A stretch of DNA of 64,000 nt, taken from assembly GCA_001029295.1 (NCBI GenBank), contig LDXJ01000063.1:186001-250000 (forward strand). Direction: 5' to 3'. A program made the translations under genes and the position numbers. This stretch comes from Peptococcaceae bacterium CEB3. GTDB lineage: Bacteria > Bacillota > Desulfitobacteriia > Desulfitobacteriales > Desulfitobacteriaceae. Below the pieces are notes generated by a model. It was not told the DNA's origin. It did not search any database and saw only the letters and a list, made by a program, of their open reading frames with translations. The number at the start of each line of letters is the position of its first letter. The first letter of the stretch is position 1. This document shows, piece by piece, positions 28,534 through 33,405 of this stretch.

Positions 28534-28659
28534 AGTAGGCACAAGCCTGTAACCCGGCACCTGTTTTCATGCTCTGTCGGCTGCTCTTGGCGGCACGGTA
28601 ATCTACCCCCGAAGAGCCGCAAGCCTGTTACAGTACAGAGGATATTTCGCCAAAAGTGA

Positions 28660-28688
28660 TTGACAAACGAGGCCGGATCCGCTATCAT
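28660..28688 (+). promoter_or_regulatory. promoter of the serine T-box operon
   Basis: TTGACA (28660-28665), a 17-bp spacer and TATCAT (28683-28688), about 70 bases before Stem I of the T-box leader. Confidence 0.75.
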
Positions 28689-28758
28689 TAAGAACAGCAA
28701 AGGGAAACGTTAAGCTGAGGTCAAATGAACTGAGATAAGAACAGTTAACTGAACAGAG

Positions 28759-28978
28759 TATAACGCGATGAAGGGAAGTCCCGGGGCTGGGTAGATCAGA
28801 GAGCTGACGGTTGGTGCGAGTCAGTCTATAGGCCGCAGGGTTCCGTCCCGGAGCGGCCGATGATGAATTGTGACGGGTTCCGCCCGATAGCGCGGACATA
28901 AGTTGGCCGGTTTGGCAACATGGGTGGCAACGCGGGAAATAACCTCTCGTCCCTGATTGGGATGAGGGGTTTTATTTA
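28759..28978 (+). promoter_or_regulatory. T-box riboswitch with serine (UCC) specifier, first terminator module
   Basis: Stem I is recognisable: GCGATGAAGGGAAGT on the 5' side, then AGAGAGCTGACGGTTGGTGC with GAGTCAG (the AG bulge/distal loop), then the return strand with TTCCGTCCCGGAGC. The specifier is read as UCC (28842-28844), a serine codon. The T-box GGGTGGCAACGCGG (28922-28935) carries TGGC, pairing with the GCCA 3' end expected of tRNA-Ser, and CGTCCC completes the antiterminator. The competing terminator (28943-28974, 11 bp plus TTTT) follows. Uncharged tRNA-Ser should allow read-through into serC and serA. Confidence 0.9.
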
Positions 28979-29106
28979 TTCCCGTTGGCAGGGGATGGCA
29001 GTGCCGTTGGCGGCGATCCCTCTTCACCTGAACCCAGAACGAACCGGCAAGCCATTGGGTGGCACCGCGGACATACCCGCCCCAAATTTTGGGGTGGGTT
29101 TTAATT
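28979..29106 (+). promoter_or_regulatory. second T-box antiterminator/terminator module
   Basis: A second T-box sequence GGGTGGCACCGCGG (29057-29070), again with TGGC, is followed by CGCCCC for antiterminator pairing and a second terminator, ACCCGCCCC/GGGGTGGGTTTT (29075-29102). The 75 bases before it hold a hairpin (GGGAT ... ATCCC, about 28992-29020) but none of the standard Stem I signatures. The leader therefore seems to have one full Stem I and two tRNA 3'-end sensing modules in series. Confidence 0.75.
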
Positions 29107-29169
29107 GTTTTCTCATGTATTCTCACGTATTCTCAGAAATCTAAGTGAAAAAGGAAAGGGGTTTTAAGG

Positions 29170-30258
29170 ATGGCAAGGGTGTACAATTTTGCGGCGGGTC
29201 CGGCTGTATTGCCGGAGGAGGTGCTGAAGGAAGCAGCGGAGGAGATGTTGGAGTACAAAAACACGGGCATGTCGGTTATGGAAATGAGCCACCGGTCTCA
29301 GGCTTTTGCCGCCATCATCGAGGAGGCGGAACAAGCGTTGCGGAATTTGATGGGGATACCGGACAGTTACAAGGTGCTTTTCCTGCAAGGAGGCGCTTCC
29401 CAGCAGTTTGCCATGGTGCCCATGAACTTGATGAGAAACAGGATGGCAGACCACATCAATACGGGACAGTGGGCTAAAAAGGCCATTGCGGAAGGGAAAC
29501 TCTTCGGCCGGGTCAACGTCATCGCCACCTCCGAAGATAAGACTTTTTCGTATATACCCGACTTGAAAGACCTGAAAGTCTCGGAGGATGCCGACTACGT
29601 TTATATCTGCCACAACAACACGATCTACGGCACTAAGTTTAACGAACTTCCGGAGACCGGCGGTAAAACCCTGGTGGCGGACATGTCTTCCGACATCCTT
29701 TCCGAACCGGTCGATGTCACACAATACGGCCTCATTTTCGCGGGTGCGCAGAAAAATATCGGTCCGGCCGGGGTCGTGGTGGTGATCATGCGGGAGGATT
29801 TGATCAGAGACGATGTCTTGCCCGGCACGCCGACCATGTTGAAATACAAGACTCATGCTGATAACAAATCCCTCTACAACACCCCGCCCGCTTACGGGAT
29901 CTATATTTGCGGCAAAGTATTCAAATGGGTCGAGAAAATGGGCGGGCTCACGGCCATGAAGCGGCGCAACGAGGAGAAGGCCGCGCTCCTTTATGATTAT
30001 CTGGACGGGAGTACTCTCTTCAGAGGAACCGTCGTCAAGAAGGACCGCTCACTTATGAATGTGCCTTTCGTCATAGGTTCGGCGGAACTGGAAGCAAAAT
30101 TCGTGAAAGAAGCCAAAGCGGCCGGTTTGGAAAATCTTAAAGGACACAGAACGGTGGGGGGTATGAGAGCGAGCATTTACAACGCCATGCCGGTTGAGGG
30201 TGTGGAAGCTTTGGTGGAATTCATGAGGAAATTCGAAGCGGAGAATTCGGGGTCTTGA
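29170..30258 (+). CDS. serC: phosphoserine aminotransferase
   Basis: 362 residues. The opening VYNFAAGPAVLPEEVLKEA is the SerC signature. LFLQGGASQQFAMVPMNL and the PLP lysine region FAGAQKNIGPAGV follow. It converts 3-phosphohydroxypyruvate and glutamate to phosphoserine and 2-oxoglutarate, the second step of serine synthesis. It is the first gene after the serine-specific T-box leader and is followed by serA, so the operon responds to uncharged tRNA-Ser. Confidence 0.97.
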   Translation: MARVYNFAAGPAVLPEEVLKEAAEEMLEYKNTGMSVMEMSHRSQAFAAIIEEAEQALRNLMGIPDSYKVLFLQGGASQQFAMVPMNLMRNRMADHINTGQWAKKAIAEGKLFGRVNVIATSEDKTFSYIPDLKDLKVSEDADYVYICHNNTIYGTKFNELPETGGKTLVADMSSDILSEPVDVTQYGLIFAGAQKNIGPAGVVVVIMREDLIRDDVLPGTPTMLKYKTHADNKSLYNTPPAYGIYICGKVFKWVEKMGGLTAMKRRNEEKAALLYDYLDGSTLFRGTVVKKDRSLMNVPFVIGSAELEAKFVKEAKAAGLENLKGHRTVGGMRASIYNAMPVEGVEALVEFMRKFEAENSGS

Positions 30259-30520
30259 GCAGAGAATTCGAGATCTTGAGCCGGAAATTCAGGATCCTGA
30301 GCCGGGAATGAGGAATCGTGCGTTGGCATGGCGCCGCGGTGACACGTGCTCAATCCGCAAAGGGATGAGGAGGGACGCGGGCATCCTAACTTTTGGCAGC
30401 CTGAGAAGGATTGAGGAGCGGCGCGGGAATTGGTACTTTTGGCAGCCTGAAAAGGGTTGAGGAAAGACGCAAGAATCAGTACTTTTGGCAGTTAGGAAAA
30501 AAGAAGGAAGAGGTGCAACT
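30259..30520. repeat. two families of degenerate tandem repeats between serC and serA
   Basis: 30243-30310 holds three units of about 23 bp around GAATTC-GG-TCTTGAGC. 30365-30500 holds three units of about 57 bp, each ending in TACTTTTGGCAG or a close variant and starting with TGAGGA. No gene is present and the operon probably reads through. Confidence 0.65.
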
Positions 30521-31684
30521 ATGTTTAAGATCAACTGCTTAAACCCCATTGCCGGGGTGGGCTTGGACCTTTTAGCGGAAAACTATGAGAATGTCGGCAG
30601 CTTCCGCGAGGCGGACGCGCTCCTGGTCCGGAGTGCCAGTGTGCATGAACTGGAATTGCCTGCCTCGGTGCTCGCTATCGCCCGGGCCGGTGCCGGGGTG
30701 AATAATATCCCTTTGGAAAAATGCGCGGAAAGCGGTGTGGTCGTCTTCAACACCCCGGGGGCCAATGCCAACGCGGTCAAAGAGATTATTATCGCCAGCC
30801 TGCTCCTGGCCTCCCGGGATATAGTGGCCGGAATTAACTGGGTGAATTCGATGAAGGATGATCCGGACCTGGCTAAGCTGGTGGAAAAGACCAAGGCGAA
30901 GTTTGCCGGCACGGAAATCAAGGGCAAAAGGCTGGGCGTTATAGGGCTGGGGGCGGTCGGGGTTCTCGTCGCCAACGCGGCCAACCGGCTGGGGCTGGAG
31001 GTCTACGGATACGATCCCTTCATTTCCGTCAGGGCCGCCTGGAATCTTTCCCGGCATATTAAGCCGATCAAATCACTGGATGAGTTATACCGGACCTGTG
31101 ATTTTATCACGGTTCACGTTCCTTTGGCGGATTCGACCAAAGGCATGCTCAACGGAGAGGCTTTTGCGCTCATGCAGGAAGGCGTCAAGATCCTGAATTT
31201 TTCCCGCGACGCCATCGTCAACGAAGACGATATGATCGAAGCCCTGCGCTCCGGACGGGTCAAGAGGTATGTGACCGATTTCCCGAATCCCAAGATCGCG
31301 GGGGTGGAAGGGGTCATCGCTATTCCCCACCTGGGGGCTTCCACCGCCGAGTCGGAGGACAACTGCGCGATTATGGCTGTGGAGCAGTTGATGGATTACC
31401 TGGAAAACGGAAATATTAAAAACTCGGTCAACTACCCCAACTGTGACATGGGGGTTTGTGGCCAAGTGGGGCGCATCGCCATTCATCATAAAAACATCCC
31501 GAACATGCTCAGCCAATTCACGTCCACATTTGCCCGGGAGGACATCAATATTTCAGACATGACCAACAAGAGCAAGGGCAAATGGGCCTATACCCTGCTC
31601 GATATAGACGCGCCCTCCACTCCGGCCATGGCGGAGGGAATGGCTAAAATTGACGGAGTCCTAAGAGTCCGGATCGTGGTCTGA
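30521..31684 (+). CDS. serA: D-3-phosphoglycerate dehydrogenase
   Basis: 387 residues from the ATG at 30521 with GGAAGAGGTG upstream. The NAD-binding fold has RLGVIGLGAVGVLVANAA. The catalytic arginine lies in NFSRDAIVNEDDM and the catalytic histidine in IPHLGASTAESEDN. A C-terminal ACT domain (from NMLSQFTSTFAREDINIS) suggests feedback by serine. The segment before the histidine reads YVTDFPNPKI instead of the usual DVFEEEP, so the conserved glutamate is displaced or missing, as in a clostridial subgroup of the family. It makes 3-phosphohydroxypyruvate, the SerC substrate. Confidence 0.95.
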   Translation: MFKINCLNPIAGVGLDLLAENYENVGSFREADALLVRSASVHELELPASVLAIARAGAGVNNIPLEKCAESGVVVFNTPGANANAVKEIIIASLLLASRDIVAGINWVNSMKDDPDLAKLVEKTKAKFAGTEIKGKRLGVIGLGAVGVLVANAANRLGLEVYGYDPFISVRAAWNLSRHIKPIKSLDELYRTCDFITVHVPLADSTKGMLNGEAFALMQEGVKILNFSRDAIVNEDDMIEALRSGRVKRYVTDFPNPKIAGVEGVIAIPHLGASTAESEDNCAIMAVEQLMDYLENGNIKNSVNYPNCDMGVCGQVGRIAIHHKNIPNMLSQFTSTFAREDINISDMTNKSKGKWAYTLLDIDAPSTPAMAEGMAKIDGVLRVRIVV

Positions 31685-32169: not shown

Positions 32170-33405
32170 TTGGCTATTGTGAGACCCTTTAGGGCAGTGA
32201 GGCCGCGTGCTGACGCGGCTGCCCGCGTGGCGGCCCTTCCTTATGACGTCTTTAACCGGGAAGAGGCACTGGCAGAAGTGCGCAAAGAGCCTCTTTCATT
32301 TCTCAAAGTCGACAGGGCGGAGACACAATTTAACGGGGAGATTGATCCTTATGATTCCCGGGTCTATGAGCGGGCCGGGGAGACACTGCGGGAAATGATG
32401 CGGGACGGCGTCCTCATCCCGGAAAGCGGGGATTCCTACTATATCTATGAACTGACCGGGGCCGGACACACTCAAACCGGCATCGTGGGTTGTGTGGCCG
32501 TGGACGATTATCTCGGCCATGTGATCAAGAAACATGAGAACACGCGCGCCGATAAAGAAGCCGACCGCGTCAACCATGTGGAGGCCTGCCGGGCGCAAAC
32601 CGGGCCCATATTCCTAGCCTATCGTTCCCGGGAAGCGATCACTCGGGTGGTCGCCCGGATTAAAGGGGAGCCCCCTCTCTGCGATTTTATGGCGGCGGAC
32701 GGAGTCCGGCATACGGTCTGGAAAATAGGCGGGCAAACTGAGCGGGAAGAGATCAGGGCAGGTTTTGACCGGGTACAAAGTGTCTATATAGCCGATGGGC
32801 ACCACCGGGCGGCCGCGGCCGTAAAATTGGCCCTCAAGAGGAGAAAAGAAAATCCCGCTTACTCCGGCGGCGAGGAGTTTAACTTCTTCCTCAGTGTACT
32901 CTTCCCTCACGACCAACTGAGAATCTTGCCTTACAACCGGGTCGTCAGGGATCTGGGCGGTTACAGTGAGGAAGAGTTCCTCCGGGCGCTGGCCGGGGCT
33001 TTTCGGGTTAAGAAGATCGGAAGCGAGCCCTATCAGCCGGAGGAAAAGGCGACTTTCGGCATGTACCTCGGGGGCGTGTGGTACGAACTCAGGGCCGGGG
33101 AGGAGATTCGCTCCCCGGATCCTGTGGAGGGGCTGGATGTCTCCCTCTTGCAAAATCACTTGCTCGCTCCTCTGCTCAAAATTGCGGATGTCAGAACGGA
33201 CCCCAGGATAGATTTTGTCGGCGGGATCCGGGGGCTTCCGGAGCTCGAAAGGAGAGCCCGGACCGATATGAAACTCGCCCTCTCTCTCTATCCCACTTCT
33301 CTGCAAGACTTGTTCGACGTGGCGGATGCCGGCCAACTGATGCCGCCGAAGTCCACTTGGTTTGAACCCAAGCTCAGGAGCGGCTTGTTCATCCACGAAA
33401 TTTGA
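32170..33405 (+). CDS. DUF1015-family protein linked to serine synthesis genes
   Basis: 411 residues from a TTG start. It matches DUF1015 proteins: the N-terminus IVRPFRAVRPRAD ... ALPYDVFNREEA, the charged motif KKHENTRADKEADRVNH (about 118-134), and ADGHHRAAAAVKLAL (about 207-221). These motifs suggest a phosphate- or nucleotide-handling active site, but the reaction is not established. The family often sits beside serA and serC, as here, so a role in serine or phosphoserine metabolism is a reasonable inference. The ribosome binding site is weak. Confidence 0.85.
   Translation: MAIVRPFRAVRPRADAAARVAALPYDVFNREEALAEVRKEPLSFLKVDRAETQFNGEIDPYDSRVYERAGETLREMMRDGVLIPESGDSYYIYELTGAGHTQTGIVGCVAVDDYLGHVIKKHENTRADKEADRVNHVEACRAQTGPIFLAYRSREAITRVVARIKGEPPLCDFMAADGVRHTVWKIGGQTEREEIRAGFDRVQSVYIADGHHRAAAAVKLALKRRKENPAYSGGEEFNFFLSVLFPHDQLRILPYNRVVRDLGGYSEEEFLRALAGAFRVKKIGSEPYQPEEKATFGMYLGGVWYELRAGEEIRSPDPVEGLDVSLLQNHLLAPLLKIADVRTDPRIDFVGGIRGLPELERRARTDMKLALSLYPTSLQDLFDVADAGQLMPPKSTWFEPKLRSGLFIHEI

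Follow-up and report, generated by a model that had tools for sequence, protein, structure and literature searches.

A conserved partial tandem serine T-box upstream of serC-serA with a predicted exchange of Stem III strands

Introduction

Transcriptional T-box leaders of the long Stem I class (RF00230) combine a Stem I that carries a specifier and the AGAGA/UGNRA motifs with a Stem III, a T-box, and an antiterminator that is opposed to a terminator. The serine leader described here has all of these elements and differs in that it adds a second antiterminator/terminator without its own Stem I. A single sensor followed by more than one discriminator/terminator module is also the arrangement of the kind named partially tandem T-boxes in PMC7583486. 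Fully tandem T-boxes and tandem riboswitch logic gates (PMC9481103 and PMC12452182) likewise make serial termination decisions in one leader, but they have two complete sensors, whereas the serine leader has one sensor and two expression platforms. In Desulfitobacterium hafniense, serC is preceded by a Ser(UCC) T-box according to PMC8002221, which does not describe two modules; this T-box shares the gene, the specifier, and the organism family with the serine leader and is probably orthologous to it.

Here, we report a real, conserved partial tandem serine T-box from Peptococcaceae bacterium CEB3. Its kind is ordinary, and its predicted mode of working sets it apart from most partial tandems. 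Coordinates are those of the window (i.e., the whole analysed stretch of 64,000 nucleotides of contig LDXJ01000063.1).

Results and Discussion

One Stem I and two antiterminator/terminator modules

The covariance model RF00230 covered positions 28759 to 28957 end to end (81.3 bits; E = 4e-18; Table 1), in agreement with a first-pass annotation that had proposed a full Stem I with a UCC specifier. The score lies below the Rfam gathering score for RF00230 (i.e., 93), as do those of the majority of the 13 RF00230 matches in the genome; this cut-off is a database convention and not a structural feature. The AGAGA and UGCGA sequences of the leader are motifs of long Stem I.

Table 1. Features of the serine leader and of the genes that follow it in the window
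Feature	Positions	Strand	Details and basis
Promoter-like site	28660..28688	+	TTGACA-17-TATCAT; consensus scan, 11/12 matches
Stem I	28759..28860	+	UCC specifier 28842-28844, AGAGA 28798-28802, UGCGA 28815-28819; RF00230 alignment
Region between Stem I and Stem III (Stem II/IIA-B area)	28869..28899	+	kept in all relatives; 39/83 class genomes
Stem III	28902..28919	+	5' arm and loop 28902-28914 predicted to pair also with 29040-29052 in the read-through fold
Antiterminator 1	28922..28953	+	partner CGUCCC 28948-28953; RF00230 alignment
Terminator 1	28941..28979	+	hairpin 28941-28971, then U-rich tail; consensus scan and folding
Intermodule strand	28979..29052	+	predicted antisense to module 1; no Stem I
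Antiterminator 2	29055..29085	+	helices UUGGG/CCCAA and GCGG/CCGC; partial RF00230 match, 30 relatives
Terminator 2	29075..29109	+	hairpin 29075-29099, then U-rich tail; consensus scan and folding
serC, phosphoserine aminotransferase	29170..30258	+	Pfam Aminotran_5
serA, phosphoglycerate dehydrogenase	30485..31684	+	Pfam 2-Hacid_dh, 2-Hacid_dh_C

T-box 1 reads GGGTGGCAACGCGG (28922-28935; bulge UGGCAAC, 28925-28931), and T-box 2 reads GGGTGGCACCGCGG (29057-29070; bulge UGGCACC, 29060-29066). That each has its own pairing partner and terminator was also part of the first-pass annotation, and alignment, consensus scan, and folding agree on it: two terminators were observed in the scan versus 0.7 expected, and the hairpins of terminators 1 and 2 had folding z scores of -5.8 and -3.3, respectively. 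Since CGUCCC in module 1 and CCGCCCC in module 2 are each used by both the antiterminator and the terminator fold, the two folds are mutually exclusive in both modules.

The tRNA-Ser(GGA) of this genome has an anticodon that matches the UCC specifier, discriminator G, and an encoded CCA (end, CTCTCC-GCCA). The UGGC of both bulges is complementary to its GCCA end, which bears out the earlier proposal that both modules fit a tRNA-Ser with discriminator G. When the segment from 28974 to 29110 was searched alone, no second Stem I was found in it, as had been expected; the segment matched RF00230 at antiterminator positions 185 to 216 only (29054-29084; 17.7 bits; E = 0.025). A fully tandem T-box, for which this segment would have to hold a further Stem I carrying a specifier of its own, was thus rejected. 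A transcript carrying module 2 alone was also considered, and the scan of 28550-29180 revealed no internal promoter, the sole plus-strand promoter-like site being the one upstream of Stem I.

The missing second Stem I and the complementarity of bulge 2, like that of bulge 1, to GCCA are what would be expected if a second, free tRNA were bound by the module 2 bulge alone, as a low-specificity sensor. Other tRNAs with discriminator G would fit such a bulge too, and weak tRNA binding is to be expected of a T-box bulge in the absence of anticodon reading. We consider this explanation improbable.

The leader lies upstream of serC and serA, which are serine-making genes. A DUF1015 gene (PF06245; E = 1e-112) follows them at 32170-33405 and may belong to the same operon.

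Conservation of both modules

The SerC protein shares 94% identity with its counterpart in Acididesulfobacillus acetoxydans, and Desulfosporosinus provides the next relatives; the window genome is in the genus of A. acetoxydans. A family search identified SerC (E ≤ 1e-40) in 37 of 46 genomes, and every intact leader of the close SerC type in that family (i.e., identity of 77% or more) had two modules. A class-wide search with the Stem II-to-Stem III pattern detected the leader in 39 of 83 genomes. Removal of duplicates left 30 distinct two-module leaders, which span seven genera and two families, along with 8 leaders that have one module. The former all stand upstream of serC, except for L167, whose contig ends before the gene. 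Seven of the latter precede serA (L171, L173, L183, L189, L190, L191, and L192), and one precedes serC (L051). A phylum search limited to GTGGC motifs revealed no additional serine leaders of this type.

The 30 two-module leaders retain T-box 2 together with the associated antiterminator and terminator. The bulge of module 1 is UGGCAAC in all leaders, and that of module 2 is UGGCACC in 29 of 30. Helix A1 has 3 to 4 bp in module 1 versus 5 bp in module 2 (nine leaders measured). The distance between the T-boxes ranges from 92 to 173 nucleotides among the serine leaders, and the intermodule sequence diverges rapidly between genera. Outside the window's genus, nearly all leaders share GGY(N)nAACUU-like letters in its last segment, before T-box 2; this segment reads AGCCAAGAACUU in L167 and CGAACCGGCAAGC in the window's genus.

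Both modules on one Stem I are therefore conserved by evolution. Because of this conservation, the constant bulges, and the absence of a second Stem I, the serine leader is a partial tandem T-box (i.e., one Stem I with two antiterminator/terminator modules).

The first-pass annotation had also raised the possibility of a decayed tandem copy, and it had named beforehand a recognisable second Stem I in 28979-29050, or loss of the second terminator in all relatives, as evidence against its account; no such Stem I was found, and that terminator is kept in the 30 two-module leaders. If module 2 were a duplicate in decay, or simply a second terminator without tRNA-dependent switching, this would account for the absence of Stem I before module 2, for the strong terminator 2 hairpin, and for the fact that seven serA leaders and L051 dispense with module 2. 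However, T-box 2, its bulge, and both antiterminator helices are nearly invariant across genera while their flanks diverge, and the A2 helix of L040 has changed from GCGG/CCGC to GCGA/UCGC with pairing retained. Module 2 is also nearer to the T-box consensus than module 1 is. Decay is contradicted by these observations, and we regard this explanation, in either form, as very improbable.

The one-module leaders include a case of apparent gene loss. Between the leader and serA of L171, a short frame (LLDAKFVREAKVIGLES) is similar to the C-terminal region of SerC, which in the window reads AKFVKEAKAAGLENL. This SerC-like remnant indicates that serC was lost by deletion in that lineage, and module 2 was probably lost along with it.

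Partial tandem T-boxes in the phylum

Neither the partial tandem kind nor its association with serC is new. When the phylum was searched by pattern for pairs of T-box motifs 72 to 132 nucleotides apart, 85 of 398 genomes gave a match; some 25 of them were tRNA-Ala gene artefacts, judging from the matched letters, which leaves partial tandem T-boxes in about 60 of the 398 genomes. The CEB3 genome itself contains a second one, L002 (G000:C58:163018-163374, minus strand), located before a prephenate dehydratase gene (pheA), where module 2 comes with a Stem III hairpin of its own. This arrangement, for which we use the working label own-Stem-III type, was assessed in predicted ensembles against a comparison set of 51 other partial tandems (L002, L124-L146, and L200-L239): at least three local pairs before T-box 2 were present in 75% of the 51 and in none of the 30 serine leaders. 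Most partial tandems examined thus provide module 2 with a Stem III hairpin, whereas the serine leaders are predicted to share the 5' arm of Stem III and to have an antisense intermodule.

Two further observations were made in these surveys. Among the 51 other partial tandems, which are in part non-independent cases, AAC in module 1 was combined with ACC in module 2 (UGGUAAC/UGGUACC) 17 times, and the reverse combination occurred 0 times. A T-box antiterminator match, L013 (G000:C63:511862-511894), lies before a valS-like gene, and the Rfam model finds no Stem I there.

Predicted exchange of the Stem III strands

In folds computed without tRNA, Stem I, or transcription kinetics, imposing antiterminator 2 caused the Stem III region to pair with the segment before T-box 2, with loss of Stem III, in 29 of 30 optimal folds. 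In the predicted fold of the window, the 5' arm and loop of Stem III form a 9-bp helix with the segment before T-box 2 (28906-28914 with 29040-29048). Further predicted helices join 28921-28925 to 29032-29036, 28928-28932 to 28983-28987, and 28934-28937 to 28979-28982, with terminator 1 as a cap. T-box 1 is almost wholly paired in this fold because of its helices with 28979-28987 and 29032-29036.

The predicted number of Stem III pairs in the serine leaders fell from 6.2 before the intermodule is made to 0.3 after, versus 5.3 with shuffled intermodules, and pairs between T-box 1 and the intermodule numbered 11.8 versus 5.6. The corresponding change in the 51 other partial tandems was from 7.0 to 5.9 Stem III pairs. 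In unconstrained ensembles of the growing transcript for ten representatives, the switch occurred in the last nucleotides before T-box 2 in nine. L198 is an exception that exhibits no clear exchange.

Fold energy was better than with dinucleotide-shuffled intermodules (z = -0.7 to -5.7; p ≤ 0.05 in 28 of 30 leaders); a measure of the duplex alone gave weaker results against such shuffles than the fold did, and the window itself was non-significant (p = 0.33). Own partners did better than swapped ones: for the fold, p was 0.0012 across 30 leaders and 0.0086 across 16 representatives; for the duplex, the values were 0.0040 and 0.0365, and for the exchange helix alone 0.015 to 0.066. These p values overstate independence because the leaders are related. 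In the alignment columns of the exchange helix, in-register pairing holds for 88% of cells versus 15 to 56% when slid, although the covariation score of this helix lies within the range of shuffled controls. The pattern recurs in groups whose intermodules are unalignable (i.e., the window's genus, Desulfosporosinus, the g2 genus [L115-L117], the Peptococcaceae MAGs L040 and L045, and L194-L197).

Several candidates were rejected. In Desulfosporosinus, inspection by eye suggested a local Stem III' hairpin, but the arms belonging to each serine leader paired no better than swapped ones (p = 0.75 to 0.96). Exchange likewise seemed likely by eye in the trpE leaders L218-L220, where folding retains Stem III; in L236, Stem III is retained and an own hairpin is present.

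We predict that in the serine leaders the intermodule strand is antisense to module 1, in place of an own Stem III for module 2, and this feature is new here. A rival explanation is that two modules on one Stem I serve the same tRNA without a working exchange, by flexible tethering, and that the intermodule pairing does no more than clear module 1 away or stabilise the read-through mRNA. Conservation of both modules requires no exchange, the covariation score of the exchange helix, whose 5' arm is nearly invariant, was reached by 95 of 500 shuffles, and L198 partly keeps Stem III. Against this, the serine leaders are without the local Stem III' typical of other partial tandems, and the replacement pairing is predicted in nearly all of them. 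On balance, we consider this rival explanation rather unlikely.

A possible two-step test of one tRNA

The reading that we prefer, to which we assign an even chance, is that one Stem I serves two modules in series and that, through the Stem III exchange, the same tRNA-Ser(GGA) is tested twice. Stem I (UCC) would capture tRNA-Ser(GGA), which would meet antiterminator 1 first and, if uncharged, prevent terminator 1 from forming. Once the polymerase has passed and the intermodule has been transcribed, terminator 1 would fold harmlessly as a cap, and T-box 1 would be sealed by antisense pairing. The segment just before T-box 2 would then displace the 3' arm of Stem III from the 5' arm to form a long Stem III', which would set antiterminator 2 in the former place of antiterminator 1 relative to Stem I. 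The acceptor end of the same uncharged tRNA-Ser may thereby leave module 1 and meet module 2. Because module 2 would replace module 1 beside Stem I, the same tRNA could be tested twice in series.

With the modules arranged one after the other, transcription reaches serC-serA only if the polymerase gets past terminator 1 and, after it, terminator 2. Read-through would need two successes, so a lower leak and a sharper response may be expected; series action would multiply both leak rates. A double check of the tRNA 3' end, as proposed in the first-pass annotation, is consistent with the conservation and the folding and stands as a prediction; the interpretation given there is supported in part, and that annotation had missed both the Stem III strand exchange and the commonness of partial tandems.

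More tentatively, and with somewhat more doubt than belief on our part, the leader may be viewed as a nested T-box, in which module 1 with its terminator is an insertion in the Stem III of a second T-box and which performs a two-step, RNA-only proofreading of aminoacylation. If one bound tRNA is indeed tested twice via strand exchange, this would be serial proofreading made of RNA alone. The serine leader offers a specific, testable mechanism together with a comparison class (i.e., partial tandems whose module 2 has its own Stem III), and its one-module relatives are natural controls.

The predicted behaviour may extend beyond serine. In L221 (argG), L222 (ABC substrate-binding protein), and L223 (class V aminotransferase), the predicted folds likewise give up Stem III in favour of the intermodule strand, and no local hairpin stands before T-box 2. 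Given this similarity in unrelated leaders, such T-boxes may constitute a second general class of partial tandem T-boxes.
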